NCBI RefSeq assembly: GCF_017094465.1
Contig: NZ_CP064791.1
Coordinates: 186,001 to 250,000 of the forward strand
From: Halapricum desulfuricans
GTDB taxonomy: Archaea; Halobacteriota; Halobacteria; Halobacteriales; Haloarculaceae
Length of the DNA stretch: 64,000 nt
Reading direction: 5' to 3'
The position numbers and the translations under genes were made by a program. This document shows positions 55,049-64,000 of this stretch, one piece after another. A model generated the notes under the pieces. It made no database searches and was not told the origin of the DNA. It saw only the letters and a list, made by a program, of their open reading frames with translations. Within the stretch, counting starts at the first letter, position 1. Every line of letters starts with the position of its first letter.

Positions 55049-55513
55049 ATGCCTGAAGGAGTCTTATCCGAAGACGATACAGCACGCAACAGGGCAGCAA
55101 CCGATACCGAGCGGACGCTCGTCGTCGGACAGGAGCGCCCGATCAGAATCAGCACCGGTCACCGGATTCGACATCACTCGGGGAAGTGCTCACGCCCCCA
55201 CGGACACAACTACGAGTTCGTCGTCGAGGTCACCGGCGAACTCACCGAACAGGGCTGGGTCGTAGACAAAGGAGATATTACCACAGTATTATACGAGTGG
55301 GACCACCGTTTCCTGCTGGAACAGGGCGACCCGCTGATCGATGCCTTCGAACAGAGCGGCGACGGTGACGCTGTCGTCGTTCTGGAACAGCCACCGACAG
55401 CCGAGGTTATGAGCCTCAAGCTGGAGGAGAAGATGCTCGAAGCGTTCCCGGACACCGTCTCTGACGTCTCAGTACAGGTCTGTGAGACGAACGAGCTCTG
55501 TGCGTCCTACTGA
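55049..55513 (+). CDS. queD: 6-carboxytetrahydropterin synthase (QueD)
   Basis: 154 residues. Zinc His residues in STGHRIRHH and SRPHGHNYEF, with the catalytic Cys in GKCSRPHGHN. The DKGDITTVLYEWDHRFLL stretch and C-terminal CETNELCASY follow. It makes 6-carboxy-tetrahydropterin from dihydroneopterin triphosphate. First gene of a preQ0 operon. A TATA-like GATTTATG lies about 26-33 nt upstream (55017-55024). Its stop overlaps queE by one base. Confidence 0.94.
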   Translation: MPEGVLSEDDTARNRAATDTERTLVVGQERPIRISTGHRIRHHSGKCSRPHGHNYEFVVEVTGELTEQGWVVDKGDITTVLYEWDHRFLLEQGDPLIDAFEQSGDGDAVVVLEQPPTAEVMSLKLEEKMLEAFPDTVSDVSVQVCETNELCASY

Positions 55514-56289
55514 TGCCCGTCAACGCCGACAGCGACGCCTTCGAGGCTGATCGCCCCAGCGAGTCCGACACCGCGTTGCCGATCAACGAGCTGTTCTACT
55601 CTCTGCAGGGCGAAGGCAAGCTCTCGGGCGTCCCGACGGTGTTCGTCCGTACCAGCGGCTGCAACCTGCGCTGCTGGTTCTGCGATTCCTATCACACCTC
55701 CTGGGAACCCACCCACGCCTGGATGGACGTCGAGGACATCCTTGACGAAATCGCGAGCTATGACGCCGAACACGTCGTGCTGACCGGCGGCGAGCCGATG
55801 ATCCACGACGAGGCCGTCGAGCTGTTGAACCGACTCGGCGACCGTGGCTACCACACGACCGTCGAGACCAACGGCACGATCTACCGCGACGCCCACATCG
55901 ACCTCGCGAGTATCAGCCCGAAACTCCAGAGTAGCACCCCAACCGCCGACCGCGATCCCATGGGCGACGGCGACTGGGCCGATCGACACGAGCAACAGCG
56001 GATCGATATCGACGCGCTCGCGGCATTGGTCGACGGGTATCCGAGCCAGCTCAAGTTCGTCGTGACCGACCGCGAGGACATGACCGAGATCGAAACGCTC
56101 CTTTCGCGGATCCGTGGGGCAGCAACGGCCGCGGTCCCCGCTGAGGACGTGTTGCTGATGCCCGAAGGCACGACGCGAGACGAGCTGGATCGCACGCGAA
56201 CCGCCGTCGCCGATCTGGCGATGGAGTACGGCTACCGCTACACCCCGCGGCTCCACGTCGATCTGTGGAACGACGCGCCCGGAACCTAA
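55513..56289 (+). CDS. queE: 7-carboxy-7-deazaguanine synthase (QueE, radical SAM)
   Basis: 258 residues. The radical SAM cluster motif is CNLRCWFC near residue 50 (CxxxCxxC), preceded by LFYSLQGEGKLSGVPTVFVR. TGGEPMIHDEA near 95 binds SAM, and TTVETNGTIYRD follows. It converts carboxytetrahydropterin to 7-carboxy-7-deazaguanine. It sits between queD (1-nt overlap) and folE (10 nt). Confidence 0.95.
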   Translation: MPVNADSDAFEADRPSESDTALPINELFYSLQGEGKLSGVPTVFVRTSGCNLRCWFCDSYHTSWEPTHAWMDVEDILDEIASYDAEHVVLTGGEPMIHDEAVELLNRLGDRGYHTTVETNGTIYRDAHIDLASISPKLQSSTPTADRDPMGDGDWADRHEQQRIDIDALAALVDGYPSQLKFVVTDREDMTEIETLLSRIRGAATAAVPAEDVLLMPEGTTRDELDRTRTAVADLAMEYGYRYTPRLHVDLWNDAPGT

Positions 56290-56299
56290 CGAATCACCT

Positions 56300-56938
56300 A
56301 TGAGTGACGACACCCAACTCGACGACCGTTCGACGGACGAATCGCTTCCCGTGCAGACCGATCCCACTTCCGGAATCGACCACGAGAAGGCCCAGCGCGG
56401 CGTCAAACTCGTCCTCGAAGCCATCGGCGAGGACCCGGATCGGCCCGGACTCACCGACACCTGGCAGCGCCGCATCCCCGAGATGCTCGCAACGCTGAGC
56501 GAAGGCGACCGGCAGGCGGCCAAACCCACGATGCGGACCTTCGAGGCGACCAGTCAGGATCTCGTCGTGAAAACCGGTATTCCTGTTTACAGCCTCTGTG
56601 AGCACCATATGCTGCCGTATCACGGGACCGCTCACATCGCCTACCGGCCGGACGGCGACGTGGTCGGCCTCTCGAAACTGATCCGATACGTGCGCTGGCA
56701 GTCCCGGCGCCTGACGATGCAAGAAGAGCTGACACAGGACATCGCTCACGGGCTGGCCGAGGAACTCGATGCGGAAGCCGTCCTGGTGGAGATATCGGCG
56801 ACACATATGTGCGAGGCGATGCGCGGCATCGAGACGGAGACGACCACCACGACCCGGGCGACCATCGGCGAGCCGACCAGCGGCGAGCGACAGCGGTTCC
56901 AGGACGCGATCGCGCGGACGGACGGTGAGACGCGATGA
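56300..56938 (+). CDS. folE: GTP cyclohydrolase I, class IA (FolE)
   Basis: 212 residues. The zinc site has the Cys and His of SLCEHHMLPYHG near 96-107 and the second Cys in ATHMCEAMRG near 174. The start GVKLVLEAIGEDPDRPGLTDTWQRRIPEM is FolE1-like. It opens GTP to dihydroneopterin triphosphate, the substrate of QueD, so with queD/E/C the complete GTP-to-preQ0 route lies here. Most archaea use the unrelated MptA or FolE2-type enzyme, making a FolE1 notable. Its stop overlaps queC by 4 nt. Confidence 0.94.
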   Translation: MSDDTQLDDRSTDESLPVQTDPTSGIDHEKAQRGVKLVLEAIGEDPDRPGLTDTWQRRIPEMLATLSEGDRQAAKPTMRTFEATSQDLVVKTGIPVYSLCEHHMLPYHGTAHIAYRPDGDVVGLSKLIRYVRWQSRRLTMQEELTQDIAHGLAEELDAEAVLVEISATHMCEAMRGIETETTTTTRATIGEPTSGERQRFQDAIARTDGETR

Positions 56939-57633
56939 CCGAACACGACCGCGCCGTCGTCCTGGTCTCCGGCGGGATGGACAGCGCCACGGCCGTCTAC
57001 GAGGCCATCGAGAGGGGCTACGACCCCTACTTCCTGCACACCTCCTACGGCCAAAACACCGAATCCACGGAACTAGCGTCTGCGAAGGCACTGGCCGAGG
57101 AGGTCGAAGCCGCCGACTTCCTGCATGTCGAGACGGAGCATCTCGCGGCGATCGGCGCCTCCAGCCTCACCGACGACGGGATGGACGTCGAAGACGCCGA
57201 TCTCGACAGCGACGAGATCCCCAGTTCTTACGTCCCGTTCCGGAACGCTAACCTCCTCGCCATGGCCGTCTCGTATGCGGAGGCAAACGACTGTTCGGCC
57301 ATTTTCATCGGCGCTCACAGCGAGGACTTCTCGGGGTATCCCGACTGCCGACCTGACTTCTTCGAGGCGTTTCAGCGAGTGATCGACGTCGGCACGAAAC
57401 CCGGGACCAATATCGATCTCGTCGCGCCGTTCGTCGAGTGGTCGAAGACCGACATCGCCGAGCGGGGACTCGAGTTGGGCGTCCCATACGAGCACACCTG
57501 GAGCTGCTATCAGGACGAGTCGCCGGCGTGTGGTACCTGTGATGCGTGTGCGTTCCGACTGCAGGCGTTCCAGAACCTGGGCGAACGCGATCCGATCGAA
57601 TACGCCGAGCGGCCGGACTACACCGACGCCTGA
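56935..57633 (+). CDS. queC: 7-cyano-7-deazaguanine synthase (QueC)
   Basis: 232 residues. The PP-loop VSGGMDSATAVY near 11 binds ATP. The zinc Cys residues are in SCYQDESPACGTCDACAFR near 190-208. It makes preQ0 from carboxydeazaguanine and ammonia. In archaea preQ0 is exchanged into tRNA at position 15 for archaeosine. It closes the operon. Confidence 0.96.
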   Translation: MTEHDRAVVLVSGGMDSATAVYEAIERGYDPYFLHTSYGQNTESTELASAKALAEEVEAADFLHVETEHLAAIGASSLTDDGMDVEDADLDSDEIPSSYVPFRNANLLAMAVSYAEANDCSAIFIGAHSEDFSGYPDCRPDFFEAFQRVIDVGTKPGTNIDLVAPFVEWSKTDIAERGLELGVPYEHTWSCYQDESPACGTCDACAFRLQAFQNLGERDPIEYAERPDYTDA

Positions 57634-59281: not shown

Positions 59282-59929
59282 TCACTCCCCGTCCGGCAGG
59301 TCGTCCTGCACGCGTTCGCCCGGATACCGCCGCAGGTCGTCGTCGCTCAACGACGCGTAGTAGCGTGACTTCGTCTCCTCGTCGCCGTCGGCCCAGTCGC
59401 TGCCCATGTACGCCAGCACGTCCGTGTCGGACAGGGACAGCACGCGTCCGTCGAGCCCGCCGCGGGTGACGTGGGCGGTCTCGACTTCGGCGAAGTAGTA
59501 GGTGCAGTTCTCGAAGGTGAACGAATCCAGTACCGAACACTCGATGTTGCCGACCGCATCCGCGAGCAGCGGCACGTCCACGTGTTTCCCGGGCACGGTT
59601 TCGACGTCGAGATAGTCGAGTTTGTCGACGTCGCGGCCGCTGACCTGTCCGGCGACCGCCAGGGCGTCGATCATCCCCGTCGACGGGGCCGCCAGCACGA
59701 ACTCGCCGCTCTGCTCGATGATCTCGTGGGTGTAGGTCTTGTGACTGACCGCCAGCTGATATCGCAGCGGATCGTAGCCGGCCAGCATCCACCAGGACGC
59801 GGTCATGAGGTTCGGACCCGTCTCCGGGCTGTTGGTCACGACCAGCGAGACGACTTTCGGCTTGAACAGTGATTTCGAATCGTGTGCCGACACCTCTTCG
59901 AGTTCGGCTCGCGGTTCGGCTGCGGGCAT
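59282..59929 (-). CDS. Flavin reductase family protein (FMN-binding split barrel)
   Basis: 215 residues. The fold is recognised from VVSLVVTNSPETGPNLMTASWWMLAGYDPLRYQLAVSH near 27-65, with the residues that bind FMN, and FVLAAPSTGM near 78. Such proteins reduce flavin or use FMN on unknown substrates. It precedes, divergently, the exported redox cluster; a link to it is possible but not shown. Confidence 0.88.
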   Translation of the reverse strand: MPAAEPRAELEEVSAHDSKSLFKPKVVSLVVTNSPETGPNLMTASWWMLAGYDPLRYQLAVSHKTYTHEIIEQSGEFVLAAPSTGMIDALAVAGQVSGRDVDKLDYLDVETVPGKHVDVPLLADAVGNIECSVLDSFTFENCTYYFAEVETAHVTRGGLDGRVLSLSDTDVLAYMGSDWADGDEETKSRYYASLSDDDLRRYPGERVQDDLPDGE

Positions 59930-60062: not shown

Positions 60063-60983
60063 ATGACCGTATCGACCAGTATGGACGGACGCCACGCGAT
60101 CGACGACAGCGACGAGCAGCCAGAATCGACTGATGGTGGGTCATCGGAGACGACCGGGCTCGATAGCAGCACGCGCCGCCGGCTGCTCGCGAGCACGGCG
60201 AGCGTGAGCGCGCTCGCGACGGCCGGCTGTCTCGGCATTTTGGGTGACGGCAGCGAGACCGGGCCACGCCCGGGCGAGCCGACGCCGTACGACGGGACCG
60301 AAACTGACGCCGGCACGCCCAGCGGCGACGCGTTCGACATCGAGTTCCTCAAACAGGAGACGACGCTCAGCATCAGCAGCGACACGGCGATGCTCGACGC
60401 GGCTCTCGACGAGGATCTGGACGTGCCCTATCAGTGCCAGGTCGGCGTCTGTGGGCAGTGCACCTCGAAGGTCGAGGACGGCGACGCGACCGAGCTGGTC
60501 GAACACGACGGCAACCAGTACCTCAGCGACGCCCAGATCGAAGCCGGATACGTGCTGACCTGCGTGGGCTACCCGCGCGGCGACTTCTCGCTGACGACCG
60601 GCGTGCAAGACGAGGCCGACTCCGTCAGCGGCGGGACCGAAACGCCGTCCGAAGAGACTCCCACGCCTGGCGAGACCGAGAGCTACGCCATCGAGTTCCT
60701 CAAACAGGAGACGACGCTCGACATCAGCAGCGACACGGCGATGCTCGACGCGGCTCTCGACGAGGATCTGGACGTGCCCTATCAGTGCCAGGTCGGCGTC
60801 TGTGGGCAGTGCACCTCGAAGGTCGAGGGCGATGGCGATACGACTGATATGGTCGAACACGACGGCAATCAGTATCTCAGTGACGAGCAGATTCAAGAAG
60901 GATACGTACTGACCTGTGTCGGCTACCCGCGCTCGGACTTCTCGCTCGAAACTGGTCTGAAGGACGAAGCCGATCAGGTCTGA
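60063..60983 (+). CDS. Exported lipoprotein with two tandem [2Fe-2S] ferredoxin domains
   Basis: 306 residues. The Tat-type TRRRLLAST and a lipobox (TAGC, Cys near 56) come after a polar N-region of about 36 residues. Two plant-type ferredoxin domains follow, about 92-190 and 209-306. Each has the cluster motif CQVGVCGQCTSK and a fourth Cys in VLTCVGYP. Each starts FLKQETTL(S/D)ISSDTAMLDAALDEDLDVPYQC. They would hold two [2Fe-2S] clusters on the outer face of the membrane. The following genes encode an NrfD-like subunit and an Fe-S subunit, so it is probably an electron carrier of that system. Confidence 0.88.
   Translation: MTVSTSMDGRHAIDDSDEQPESTDGGSSETTGLDSSTRRRLLASTASVSALATAGCLGILGDGSETGPRPGEPTPYDGTETDAGTPSGDAFDIEFLKQETTLSISSDTAMLDAALDEDLDVPYQCQVGVCGQCTSKVEDGDATELVEHDGNQYLSDAQIEAGYVLTCVGYPRGDFSLTTGVQDEADSVSGGTETPSEETPTPGETESYAIEFLKQETTLDISSDTAMLDAALDEDLDVPYQCQVGVCGQCTSKVEGDGDTTDMVEHDGNQYLSDEQIQEGYVLTCVGYPRSDFSLETGLKDEADQV
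60338..60477 (+). repeat. Near-identical 140-bp internal repeat (second copy 60689-60828)
   Basis: The DNA coding for the first half of the ferredoxin domain is repeated after 351 bp, with two adjacent base changes in about 140 bp. The remaining parts of the two domains are less alike. This is a recent in-frame duplication or gene conversion, in keeping with 117-residue spacing of the domains. Confidence 0.85.
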
Positions 60984-61085: not shown

Positions 61086-61095
61086 GTATATAAAG
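61086..61095 (+). promoter_or_regulatory. TATA element and 5' leader of the NrfD operon
   Basis: GTATATAAAG predicts a start site near 61120, leaving about 105 nt of leader before the NrfD ATG at 61228, unlike the leaderless genes nearby. A 36-codon frame (61105-61215) overlaps it but has no clear start signal, and I do not call it a gene. A G-rich tract (GGGGGGACC) at 61216-61224 may serve as ribosome binding. Confidence 0.5.
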
Positions 61096-61227
61096 GGCTG
61101 TAAAATGAATATACATCCGTATCGCTGTGACGGTCTGAGTAAGTCATATGAAGTGGTGCGTGAAACCAGTGCGTGCGGATATCGGCGTATCGTGGCGACA
61201 GACGCGTACGTGTAGGGGGGACCTGCG

Positions 61228-62250
61228 ATGACCGCGGTCAGTCCGCTCCTGCCCAGCCAGTTCTGGAGTCTCTCGATCGGTGTGTACCTGTTCCTGGGTG
61301 GGCTCGCCGGCGGTGCGTACGTCACCGGCGCGGTCGCTGACTTCCTGAGCGTTCGGGATCCGTCCCGCCGGGAGGGCTATCTGGCGACGGCTCGCTGGGG
61401 GACGGTCCTCGGTGTCGTCGCGCTGGCGATCGGCGGCCCGATCCTGCTGTTTCACCTGGGCGAGCCCCTGCACGTCATCATGTTCTGGCTGTTCACGAAC
61501 TTCGACTCGTGGATGACCATCGGCATCTGGGTCATCGTGCTGTTCATGGTGCTTTCGATCCTGCAGGCGCTGTGGCTCGGCTTCGGTGCCGACAGGGGCT
61601 TTTCGATCCCCGGTGACGTGCTGTCGCCGGTGACCGGGTTGATCGACACGGTCGCGGACACGACGCGACCGAGCGAGGGCGTTCGGCGCGGGCTCAACGC
61701 CTTTGGCGCACTTGTCGGCGTTCTGCTGATCGTCTACACGGCGCTGCTGCTCAGTGCCTCCTCGGAGGTCGTTCCGATGTGGGACGCGACGTGGCTCCCG
61801 CCGCTGTTTCTGGCGAGCGGGCTCTCGATGGGAATCGCCGCCGCCGTCGGCGCGACGACGCTCACGCGGGGCGTCAACGACACGGGCGTGACGATGTTCA
61901 GTATCGCCGACGACGTGATCATCGTCGCCGAAATGGTCGTTATCTATATGCTGCTTGCGACGCTGGTCAACGGCGGTCCGACCGCCGTCGAGACCCAGCG
62001 ATACCTCCTGACGGAGGGGAACGTGATCTTCTGGGGTGGCGTCGTCGCCGCCGGCCTGCTGTTGCCGCTTGCGATCTCCGGCGGTCTGCTCGCTTTGGAG
62101 TGGCGCTACGATCTCCACGAGAACCCGCGACTTGAACGGCTGGCGACCGCCGGCTACGCGACGAAGTTCGGCTTCGTCATCTTCGGCGGGTTGATGCTTC
62201 GGCTGACGATCATCTACGCGGCGTTGAACGTGCCGCTGTTTGGAGTGTGA
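61228..62250 (+). CDS. NrfD/PsrC-family membrane subunit
   Basis: 340 residues with about nine TM helices. The first segment QFWSLSIGVYLFLGGLAGGAYVTG is characteristic of NrfD/PsrC, and FHLGEPLHVIMFWLF near 75 is a conserved quinone-side region. This family passes electrons between the membrane quinone pool and an Fe-S subunit, typically in polysulfide, tetrathionate, DMSO or nitrite complexes, and may pump protons. The next gene, the 4Fe-4S subunit, starts 5 nt after its stop. Confidence 0.92.
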   Translation: MTAVSPLLPSQFWSLSIGVYLFLGGLAGGAYVTGAVADFLSVRDPSRREGYLATARWGTVLGVVALAIGGPILLFHLGEPLHVIMFWLFTNFDSWMTIGIWVIVLFMVLSILQALWLGFGADRGFSIPGDVLSPVTGLIDTVADTTRPSEGVRRGLNAFGALVGVLLIVYTALLLSASSEVVPMWDATWLPPLFLASGLSMGIAAAVGATTLTRGVNDTGVTMFSIADDVIIVAEMVVIYMLLATLVNGGPTAVETQRYLLTEGNVIFWGGVVAAGLLLPLAISGGLLALEWRYDLHENPRLERLATAGYATKFGFVIFGGLMLRLTIIYAALNVPLFGV

Positions 62251-62255
62251 TTACG

Positions 62256-63491
62256 ATGAGTGACAAATCCAACTACGACGACATCGAGGACCGGGCCGAG
62301 GAACGACTCTCACACGTCGAGTTCGACACCGAACTCGGCAAGCAGATGGCACGCGATGCCCGCCGCGTCTCGAACGACGAGCTCTCGCGAGCGGCCTTCG
62401 AGGAGAAGTACGTCGACGACGTCCGCCAGGAGTTCGGTGTCGATCTGCGATCGGACAGCCAGGCGGACGCCGAAGCCACGCCGGGCGTCCCGCCGACCGA
62501 GAGCAAGGCCTCCCGACGGGACATGCTCAAGGCGACCGGCGCGCTCGCGACGGGCGCGGTGGCAGCCGGCGCGGGCAGTAGCGTGGCCGGGGAGTTCGTC
62601 TCCGGCAGTACCGGCGGCACGGCGGCCGCCCAGGAGGGCGGGGACGTCCAGATGGGGATGGTCATCGACACCACGACCTGTATCGAGTGTCTCCGATGTG
62701 TCCAGGGCTGTAAAGAGGAGAACAACACGCCCGAGGGGCACTTCTGGCAGGACGTCTTCCGCTTCCAGCGTGAGGACAAAGAGTACGACGCCGCGCCGAA
62801 CACCCTTGAAGGGTCTGACCCGCTGCAGCGTCCCTGTATGCACTGTGACGACGCACCCTGTATCGAGGTGTGTCCGAACAACTCCCGGTTCAAGACCGAG
62901 AACGGTCGGGTCCTCTGTGACTACGACACCTGTCTGGGCTGTGCCTACTGTGAGGTCGCCTGCCCGTATCACGTCAACTCCTTCGTCCACGAGGGGCCGC
63001 CGGACTACCTCGCGAACCCCGAGGAGAACGAGGACTACGAACCGATCCTCGACGACGTCACCGCGGAGTTCGAAGACCAGAAACGCGACGAGGAAGGGCG
63101 CTGGGTCGCCGGAACGCCGCCGGACGGATCCTGTAGCAAGTGTACGTTCTGTGCTCACCGCGAGCTCGACGACGAACAGGACGGCTCGACGACCGCCTGC
63201 GAGGACGTCTGCCCGGTCGACGCGATCCAGTTCGGGGACCTCCACGACCCCGAGAGCGCACCCCGGCAGTACCTCCGGGAGACCGTCGGCGAACTCGACG
63301 ACGCGGAGGCCGGTCCCAAACAGTACATCGAGGAGTACCCCGACGAGACGTTCACCCTCCGTGAGGACGCATCGGATCCGAACATCATCTACGTCGGCGA
63401 CGACCTCTCGGATGTCGAGGTGACGGCCGTCCCCGGACCGACGACGAAGGATGACCGTGGACTCGAGGAGAAAGACCGAACGCTACACTGA
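62256..63491 (+). CDS. Tat-exported four-cluster 4Fe-4S protein (PsrB/DmsB-like)
   Basis: 411 residues from the ATG at 62256. An unusually long N-region (about 83 residues, with charged helices) precedes the Tat signal SRRDMLKATGAL and an Ala-rich hydrophobic stretch. Cluster motifs: CIECLRCVQGC, CMHCDDAPCIEVC, CLGCAYCEVAC and the C-terminal CSKCTFC plus CEDVCPVDA, enough for four clusters. This is the electron-transfer subunit of a molybdopterin-type or related complex. The catalytic subunit would be expected downstream of the window. Confidence 0.93.
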   Translation: MSDKSNYDDIEDRAEERLSHVEFDTELGKQMARDARRVSNDELSRAAFEEKYVDDVRQEFGVDLRSDSQADAEATPGVPPTESKASRRDMLKATGALATGAVAAGAGSSVAGEFVSGSTGGTAAAQEGGDVQMGMVIDTTTCIECLRCVQGCKEENNTPEGHFWQDVFRFQREDKEYDAAPNTLEGSDPLQRPCMHCDDAPCIEVCPNNSRFKTENGRVLCDYDTCLGCAYCEVACPYHVNSFVHEGPPDYLANPEENEDYEPILDDVTAEFEDQKRDEEGRWVAGTPPDGSCSKCTFCAHRELDDEQDGSTTACEDVCPVDAIQFGDLHDPESAPRQYLRETVGELDDAEAGPKQYIEEYPDETFTLREDASDPNIIYVGDDLSDVEVTAVPGPTTKDDRGLEEKDRTLH

Positions 63492-63725: not shown

Positions 63726-64000
63726 ATGGGGATGGGGCGGCATCGTAACTGTGTAATGACACCTGAGCCGTCAGATTCCGAATCAGACACAGGCGTTTCG
63801 CGACGGAAGTTCGTCGCCGGCGGTGCCGCCGGCTGGGCGTCCGTCGCGCTCGCCGGTTGTAACGCGCTGAGTCCCGGTGACGACACCGACACCGAAGAAC
63901 CGACTGACACCGAGACCGAGACTGGCACGCCCGAGCCCCAGCCGGAGAACTACGTCGTGACCGACGACATTCTCGCCGGATCGGGCGGGTCCGCTCCCGC
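63726..64000 (+). CDS. Tat lipoprotein, partial (3' end beyond window)
   Basis: Only the first 91 codons are visible. Two in-frame ATGs exist, at 63726 (best distance to TATA) and 63756. VSRRKFVAGGAAGWASVALAGC carries the Tat motif and lipobox Cys, then a Thr/Glu/Asp linker and a beginning domain (ENYVVTDDILAGSGGSAP). It shares polarity and location with the NrfD and 4Fe-4S genes and is probably another extracytoplasmic part of the redox cluster. Confidence 0.75.
   Translation, partial: MGMGRHRNCVMTPEPSDSESDTGVSRRKFVAGGAAGWASVALAGCNALSPGDDTDTEEPTDTETETGTPEPQPENYVVTDDILAGSGGSAP

Follow-up and report, generated by a model that had tools for sequence, protein, structure and literature searches.

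Known routes by which respiratory electrons pass beyond the membrane consist mostly of c-type cytochromes or molybdenum enzymes. In the NrfABCD system, which leads from quinol to the periplasm, the carrier NrfB is a haem-c protein. PsrABC, TtrABC and DmsABC (the CISM enzymes) combine B- and C-type subunits with Tat export and a molybdopterin catalytic subunit, and the menaquinone complexes DsrMKJOP, Qrc and Hmc join an NrfC/NrfD-type module to other redox carriers. Known plant-type [2Fe-2S] ferredoxins (PF00111, TIGR02008), in contrast, are soluble proteins, found mostly in the cytosol or in plastids. We analysed a stretch of 64,000 nucleotides from Halapricum desulfuricans (NZ_CP064791.1, positions 186,001 to 250,000, forward strand; hereafter the window), in which a double ferredoxin with a lipoprotein signal, here called FDX2, is followed by NrfD, NrfC and then a repeat lipoprotein, LP8:

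60063..60983, + strand: FDX2, Tat lipoprotein with two plant-type [2Fe-2S] ferredoxin domains, 306 aa
60174..60230, + strand: FDX2 twin arginine R38-R39 to lipobox TAGC (Cys56), assigned by spacing and the haloarchaeal rule
60333..60620, + strand: FDX2 ferredoxin domain 1 (Fer2/TIGR02008), ligands C125, C130, C133 and C167
60684..60974, + strand: FDX2 ferredoxin domain 2 (Fer2/TIGR02008), ligands C242, C247, C250 and C285
61228..62250, + strand: NrfD/PsrC-type quinone-interacting membrane subunit, 340 aa (PF03916, 1.7e-30)
62247..63491, + strand: NrfC/DsrO-like subunit with four [4Fe-4S] clusters and an internal Tat signal SRRDMLK; likely start ATG 62256
63726..63998, + strand: start of LP8, Tat lipoprotein of ~110-aa repeats; likely start ATG 63756

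Both ferredoxin domains claimed in the initial annotation were recovered by profile searches (Fer2 twice in Pfam, 2.5e-26; the NCBIfam plant ferredoxin model TIGR02008 in two stretches, 133 bits, cut-off 81), and each retains the complete CX4CX2C...C ligand set of a plant-type [2Fe-2S] ferredoxin, eight cysteines in all. By sequence, the nearest solved structures are cyanobacterial and chloroplast ferredoxins; an AlphaFold model from a four-sequence alignment reached pLDDT 32. The linker between the domains is rich in Thr, Pro and Glu. An alternative in-frame ATG at 60081 coincides with the start in two relatives.

The N-terminus carries the Tat motif STRRRLLA and the only hydrophobic stretch of the protein (residues 41-59); the second arginine lies 16 residues before Cys56, a leucine follows the cysteine, and charge is absent before the lipobox. 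Haloarchaeal Tat lipoproteins have 12-21 residues between the twin arginine and the lipobox cysteine and LAGC-like boxes, and Tat is the presumed route for most lipoproteins of these organisms (PMC2945643). FDX2 shows every element of this rule (RR, 12-21 spacing, an [..]AGC box, no charge before it) and is thus predicted to be exported and lipid-anchored on the outer face, as had been proposed from the window itself. A cytosolic FDX2 with a non-functional signal would place the protein where ferredoxins usually reside. We regard this as highly improbable, since the rule was trained on lipoproteins of haloarchaea and the signal is kept in 13 of 13 orthologues with a constant spacing of 16-17 residues.

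These orthologues were collected from 392 Halobacteriales genomes (E of 5e-40 or better), 12 of which, from six genera, encode a complete tandem FDX2; Halapricum sp. CBA1109 supplied the thirteenth sequence. None of the 13 has lost the twin arginines, the lipobox or any of the eight cluster cysteines. Full-length relatives outside Halobacteriales were not found in a 295-genome phylum sample, nor was any FDX2 relative found in the plasmid and viral collections searched. The nearest paralogue in the window genome (L070_4, 40%) is likewise membrane-bound, but it has a single domain behind an N-terminal transmembrane helix, with the ferredoxin cytoplasmic by the positive-inside rule. One genome (G323) encodes a further tandem Tat lipoprotein ferredoxin of another subtype, and single-domain Tat-lipoprotein ferredoxins are present in several other haloarchaea. 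Some of the latter (L108, L110, L112 and L113) lie near universal-stress-like proteins and P-type ATPases, and are devoid of NrfC/NrfD. What is new here is therefore only the arrangement, as NrfC/NrfD modules, Tat lipoproteins and single-domain Tat-lipoprotein ferredoxins were already known.

The neighbouring subunits have the features of a quinone module. Eight transmembrane helices are predicted in NrfD, and NrfC contains four [4Fe-4S] motifs, whose 16 cysteine columns are each kept by 11 or all 12 of the sequences compared. All 12 NrfC sequences examined carry a Tat signal, two of them also a lipobox. DsrO was the best NCBIfam match of NrfC (144 bits, under the cut-off of 200), followed by NrfC itself (113 bits, also below cut-off), and, unlike in DsrMKJOP, Qrc and Hmc, a multihaem cytochrome was not found. 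FDX2, NrfC and an NrfD-type protein are grouped across six genera, side by side or within kilobases at nearly all loci; neighbour genes in the fetched loci were called by a simple script based on ORFs and codon scores, which may have missed some genes or misplaced their starts. At two loci (L051, L052) the three genes stand together without the rest of the cluster; in G200 and G342 FDX2, NrfC and a HybB-type NrfD are all that remains together. In G023 and G054, NrfC/NrfD lie 4-5 kb away from FDX2. The initial annotation had placed an NrfD and a 4Fe-4S subunit next to the ferredoxin, and the comparison of gene order in other genomes bears this out. Its further suggestion that FDX2 feeds a respiratory complex is not established: a catalytic subunit adjoins FDX2 at no locus read. 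In lacking a molybdopterin subunit beside the three genes, the locus also differs from the CISM operons; it adds a [2Fe-2S] lipoprotein to what it shares with them, namely B- and C-type subunits, Tat export and a DmsR-like regulator.

A catalytic partner might nevertheless be encoded elsewhere, with FDX2 acting as accessory donor to a separate extracellular molybdenum enzyme of the Psr, Phs or Ttr type and NrfC/NrfD providing an additional, shared quinone module. The window genome has seven matches to the molybdenum catalytic family; rhodanese or TorD-like genes share an operon with several of them, and NrfD is closest (38-40%) to the PsrC-type subunits of two of these enzymes. However, the molybdenum operons read already own B and C subunits and none adjoins FDX2, and we consider this explanation unlikely. 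The ten CISM enzymes listed in the published proteogenomic study of Halodesulfurarchaeum formicicum apparently exclude the FDX2 locus, and its main text does not mention NrfD.

The NrfABCD system offers a parallel, with NrfC and NrfD homologues beside an exported carrier, although the carrier is here a lipid-anchored double ferredoxin and NrfA (pentahaem, PF02335) has no match in the window genome; the E. coli control was positive. The cytochrome c assembly family PF01578 is also absent from the window genome; its controls were positive in 9 of 14 cases, and because the Haloferax control was likewise negative, this absence alone is no proof that cytochrome c is lacking. Genes for c-type cytochromes are reported absent from related natronoarchaea (PMC6176080). 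On these grounds, a double ferredoxin in an NrfB-like place is the most economical interpretation. The reading we favour, as slightly more likely than not, is that FDX2 is a lipid-anchored two-cluster ferredoxin that serves as external relay of the NrfC/NrfD quinone module and replaces a periplasmic cytochrome.

According to this relay model, FDX2 would be put together in the cytoplasm and acquire both [2Fe-2S] clusters there. Tat exports folded proteins, which makes cluster insertion before export possible. The folded protein would leave via Tat, be fixed to the outer face of the membrane by the lipid on Cys56, and act as a tethered relay exchanging electrons with the exported NrfC and its four [4Fe-4S] clusters, while NrfD would join NrfC to the menaquinone pool; FDX2 would thereby fill the role that NrfB, or another periplasmic cytochrome of the c type, takes elsewhere. 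The model is consistent with i) the conservation of the Tat/lipobox signal and cluster cysteines, the Tat signal and 16 cysteines of NrfC and the eight-helix NrfD, and ii) the FDX2/NrfC/NrfD grouping, the shared promoter and co-occurrence described below, the absence of NrfA and PF01578, and the DmsR-like regulator. Against it stand the lack of a catalytic partner in the cluster and the non-adjacent NrfC/NrfD of G023 and G054.

When the cells grow anaerobically, electrons would most likely run outward, from quinol to an acceptor outside the cell, though only by a small margin over the reverse. Potentials of plant-type ferredoxins usually lie near -300 to -450 mV. That of menaquinone is about -74 mV (PMC5437934). 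Because the former are usually lower, outward flow would run against the potential difference, except with specially tuned clusters or with help from the membrane potential; the thiosulfate reductase of a related organism has also been proposed to run uphill from menaquinol (PMC5437934). Inward flow would be downhill for a typical plant-type ferredoxin: FDX2 might be reduced by a low-potential donor outside the cell, or by electrons released when a substrate of LP8 and the TIG/ABC system encoded nearby is oxidised, and pass these electrons through NrfC/NrfD to menaquinone. A DoxX-family protein, from the superfamily to which the small subunit of thiosulfate:quinone oxidoreductase belongs, stands beside the TIG gene at 8 of 10 loci read that have no FDX2/NrfCD (L094-L103) versus none of 9 with FDX2 and TIG (L011, L042-L050), as if quinone-linked modules were exchanged. 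From this, FDX2-NrfC-NrfD seems to stand in for DoxX as the component that ties the TIG system to quinone. However, the match of the DoxX protein to DoxD itself is below cut-off, and the distribution and regulators of FDX2 point to anaerobic, sulfur-reducing genomes; we give this inward reading a limited chance. A different DoxX (32% identical) lies beside FDX2 at L008, and in two Halapricum genomes (L093, L104) the second TIG copy neighbours neither DoxX nor FDX2/NrfCD.

Most of the larger cluster (TIG protein, ABC importer, CoxG and repeat lipoprotein) extends outside the window. Features bearing on it are:

59282..59929, - strand: flavin-reductase-like protein (PF01613, 1.5e-24), divergent from FDX2, signal peptide absent
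L011:15205-16638, - strand: TIG/Ig-domain protein, ~477 aa, without signal peptide or transmembrane helix
60022..60042, + strand: FDX2 promoter element TTTAAATAGCTGTATATTCAA (TATA box and GCTGTATATT motif), found by genome pattern search
61087..61109, + strand: nrfD promoter, TATA box and GCTGTAAAATGAA, a variant of the shared element

LP8 runs past the window end (362 aa in full, L011:9726-10814) and comprises two to three repeats without a confident Pfam family. A cupredoxin reading of these repeats (C-x-P...M) was dropped, as the histidine is not conserved across relatives; the AlphaFold model, from a single sequence, reached pLDDT 46. Homologues of LP8 occur at 10 FDX2 loci and also in FDX2-less clusters, and homologues of the flavin-reductase-like protein lie near LP8, CoxG or TIG genes in other genomes too. 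Convergent to nrfD, nrfC and LP8 runs an operon that encodes CoxG, a pair of ABC permeases with an ATPase, an NMT1-like lipoprotein and the 477-aa TIG/Ig protein. Behind it come two genes for HTH_10 regulators, of which one contains a DmsR_N domain and flanks the cluster as a DmsR-like regulator. This set of genes is kept in other Halapricum, in Halodesulfurarchaeum, in rearranged form in genus g36 and partly in G030. CoxG may be imagined as a quinone shuttle; one archaeal CoxG has been shown to act as a membrane anchor (PMC11962113). The TIG protein was found in 22 of 392 genomes, with 55-94% identity across haloarchaea, and a second copy lies elsewhere in the window genome (L093:8903-10342).

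FDX2, nrfD and TIG are each preceded by a TATA-like box followed by CTGyAwAwT. When the 2.88-Mb genome was searched with the pattern TTTAAANNGCTGTATATTNCA, allowing up to three mismatches, two sites were detected, upstream of FDX2 and of the TIG operon; the pattern was derived from these very sites, and the informative part is the absence of others in the genome. The reversed pattern gave no site in the whole genome, and the chance expectation within the window is 0. Other Halapricum species retain the element before all three genes; in Halodesulfurarchaeum it is retained before nrfD and TIG. In the relay model, FDX2/NrfCD, the ABC importer, the TIG/Ig protein, CoxG and LP8 would form one regulon. 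The confinement of the element to FDX2 and the TIG-ABC operon, and the presence of TIG in 10 of the 12 FDX2 genomes, would also agree with FDX2 serving LP8/TIG/ABC/CoxG, for instance through reduction of a bound substrate ahead of its uptake, with NrfC/NrfD merely as electron supply. Yet 12 genomes have the TIG system but no FDX2, and two loci (L051, L052) have FDX2-NrfC-NrfD but not the TIG system; we give this explanation only a limited chance.

Among the 392 genomes, TIG accompanies FDX2 in these 10 of 12 carriers against 0.7 expected, and the rhodanese lipoprotein of the sulfur-respiration Psr operon in 8 of 12 against 0.4, figures that shared ancestry inflates. At genus level the associations give p of 8e-5 for TIG and 0.005 for the rhodanese (overlap in three of six FDX2 genera). 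Many FDX2-carrying haloarchaea are likely sulfur breathers. Near one FDX2-less TIG/DoxX cluster (G367, L098:12156-14455), adjoining DsrE-like, TusA-like and rhodanese/beta-lactamase genes hint at a sulfur link, and UbiD-like and CODH/xanthine-dehydrogenase-like genes lie near the TIG cluster in other FDX2-less genomes (L097:4515-4946, L101:3532-7180).

An extension of the relay model, which we put forward tentatively and hold to be improbable as a whole, is a cytochrome-c-free conduit of sulfur-respiring haloarchaea, leading from menaquinone through NrfD, NrfC and FDX2 to an external acceptor or an EB_dh lipoprotein, and possibly reaching insoluble sulfur or other extracellular partners. In G342, an EB_dh haem-domain lipoprotein adjoins FDX2, NrfC and the HybB-type NrfD. 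G368 has an EB_dh lipoprotein with an NrfC/NrfD pair, and a single-domain ferredoxin lipoprotein some kilobases off; an EB_dh lipoprotein and a single-domain ferredoxin lipoprotein are divergently encoded in G023 and, judged by homology, in G054. In the window genome, EB_dh occurs only within a Nar/DMSO-type operon. The EB_dh (haem b) Tat lipoproteins at L053:7178-9513, L116:8387-9955 and L052:7308-9332, which adjoin or lie close to lipoprotein ferredoxins or NrfC/NrfD, are candidate external haem partners. An outside-anchored, quinone-linked [2Fe-2S] ferredoxin would be a different solution from the known exits, fitting haloarchaea without detected cytochrome c assembly, and FDX2 is a concrete, genetically testable candidate in the cultured genera Halapricum and Halodesulfurarchaeum.

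Finally, the two ferredoxin domains had been described as near-identical, which is true of the window protein (82% amino acid identity) but not of the family, whose other members show 38-71%. At nucleotide level, the first ~146 nt of the domains are 97% identical and the next 143 nt 78%. Because the near-identity is local and relatives reach only 38-71%, a recent gene conversion probably occurred in the window lineage. In the domain tree, domain 2 of the window FDX2 is placed with the first domains of Halapricum (support 99/96), and both domains cluster by lineage in Halodesulfurarchaeum, g36 and G200, for which repeated homogenisation or repeated duplication would be the simplest reading. The near-identity by itself bears no functional message. 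Upstream in the window (55049-57633), QueD-, QueE-, GTP cyclohydrolase- and QueC-like genes, of archaeosine/queuosine precursor type, were recognised by eye.
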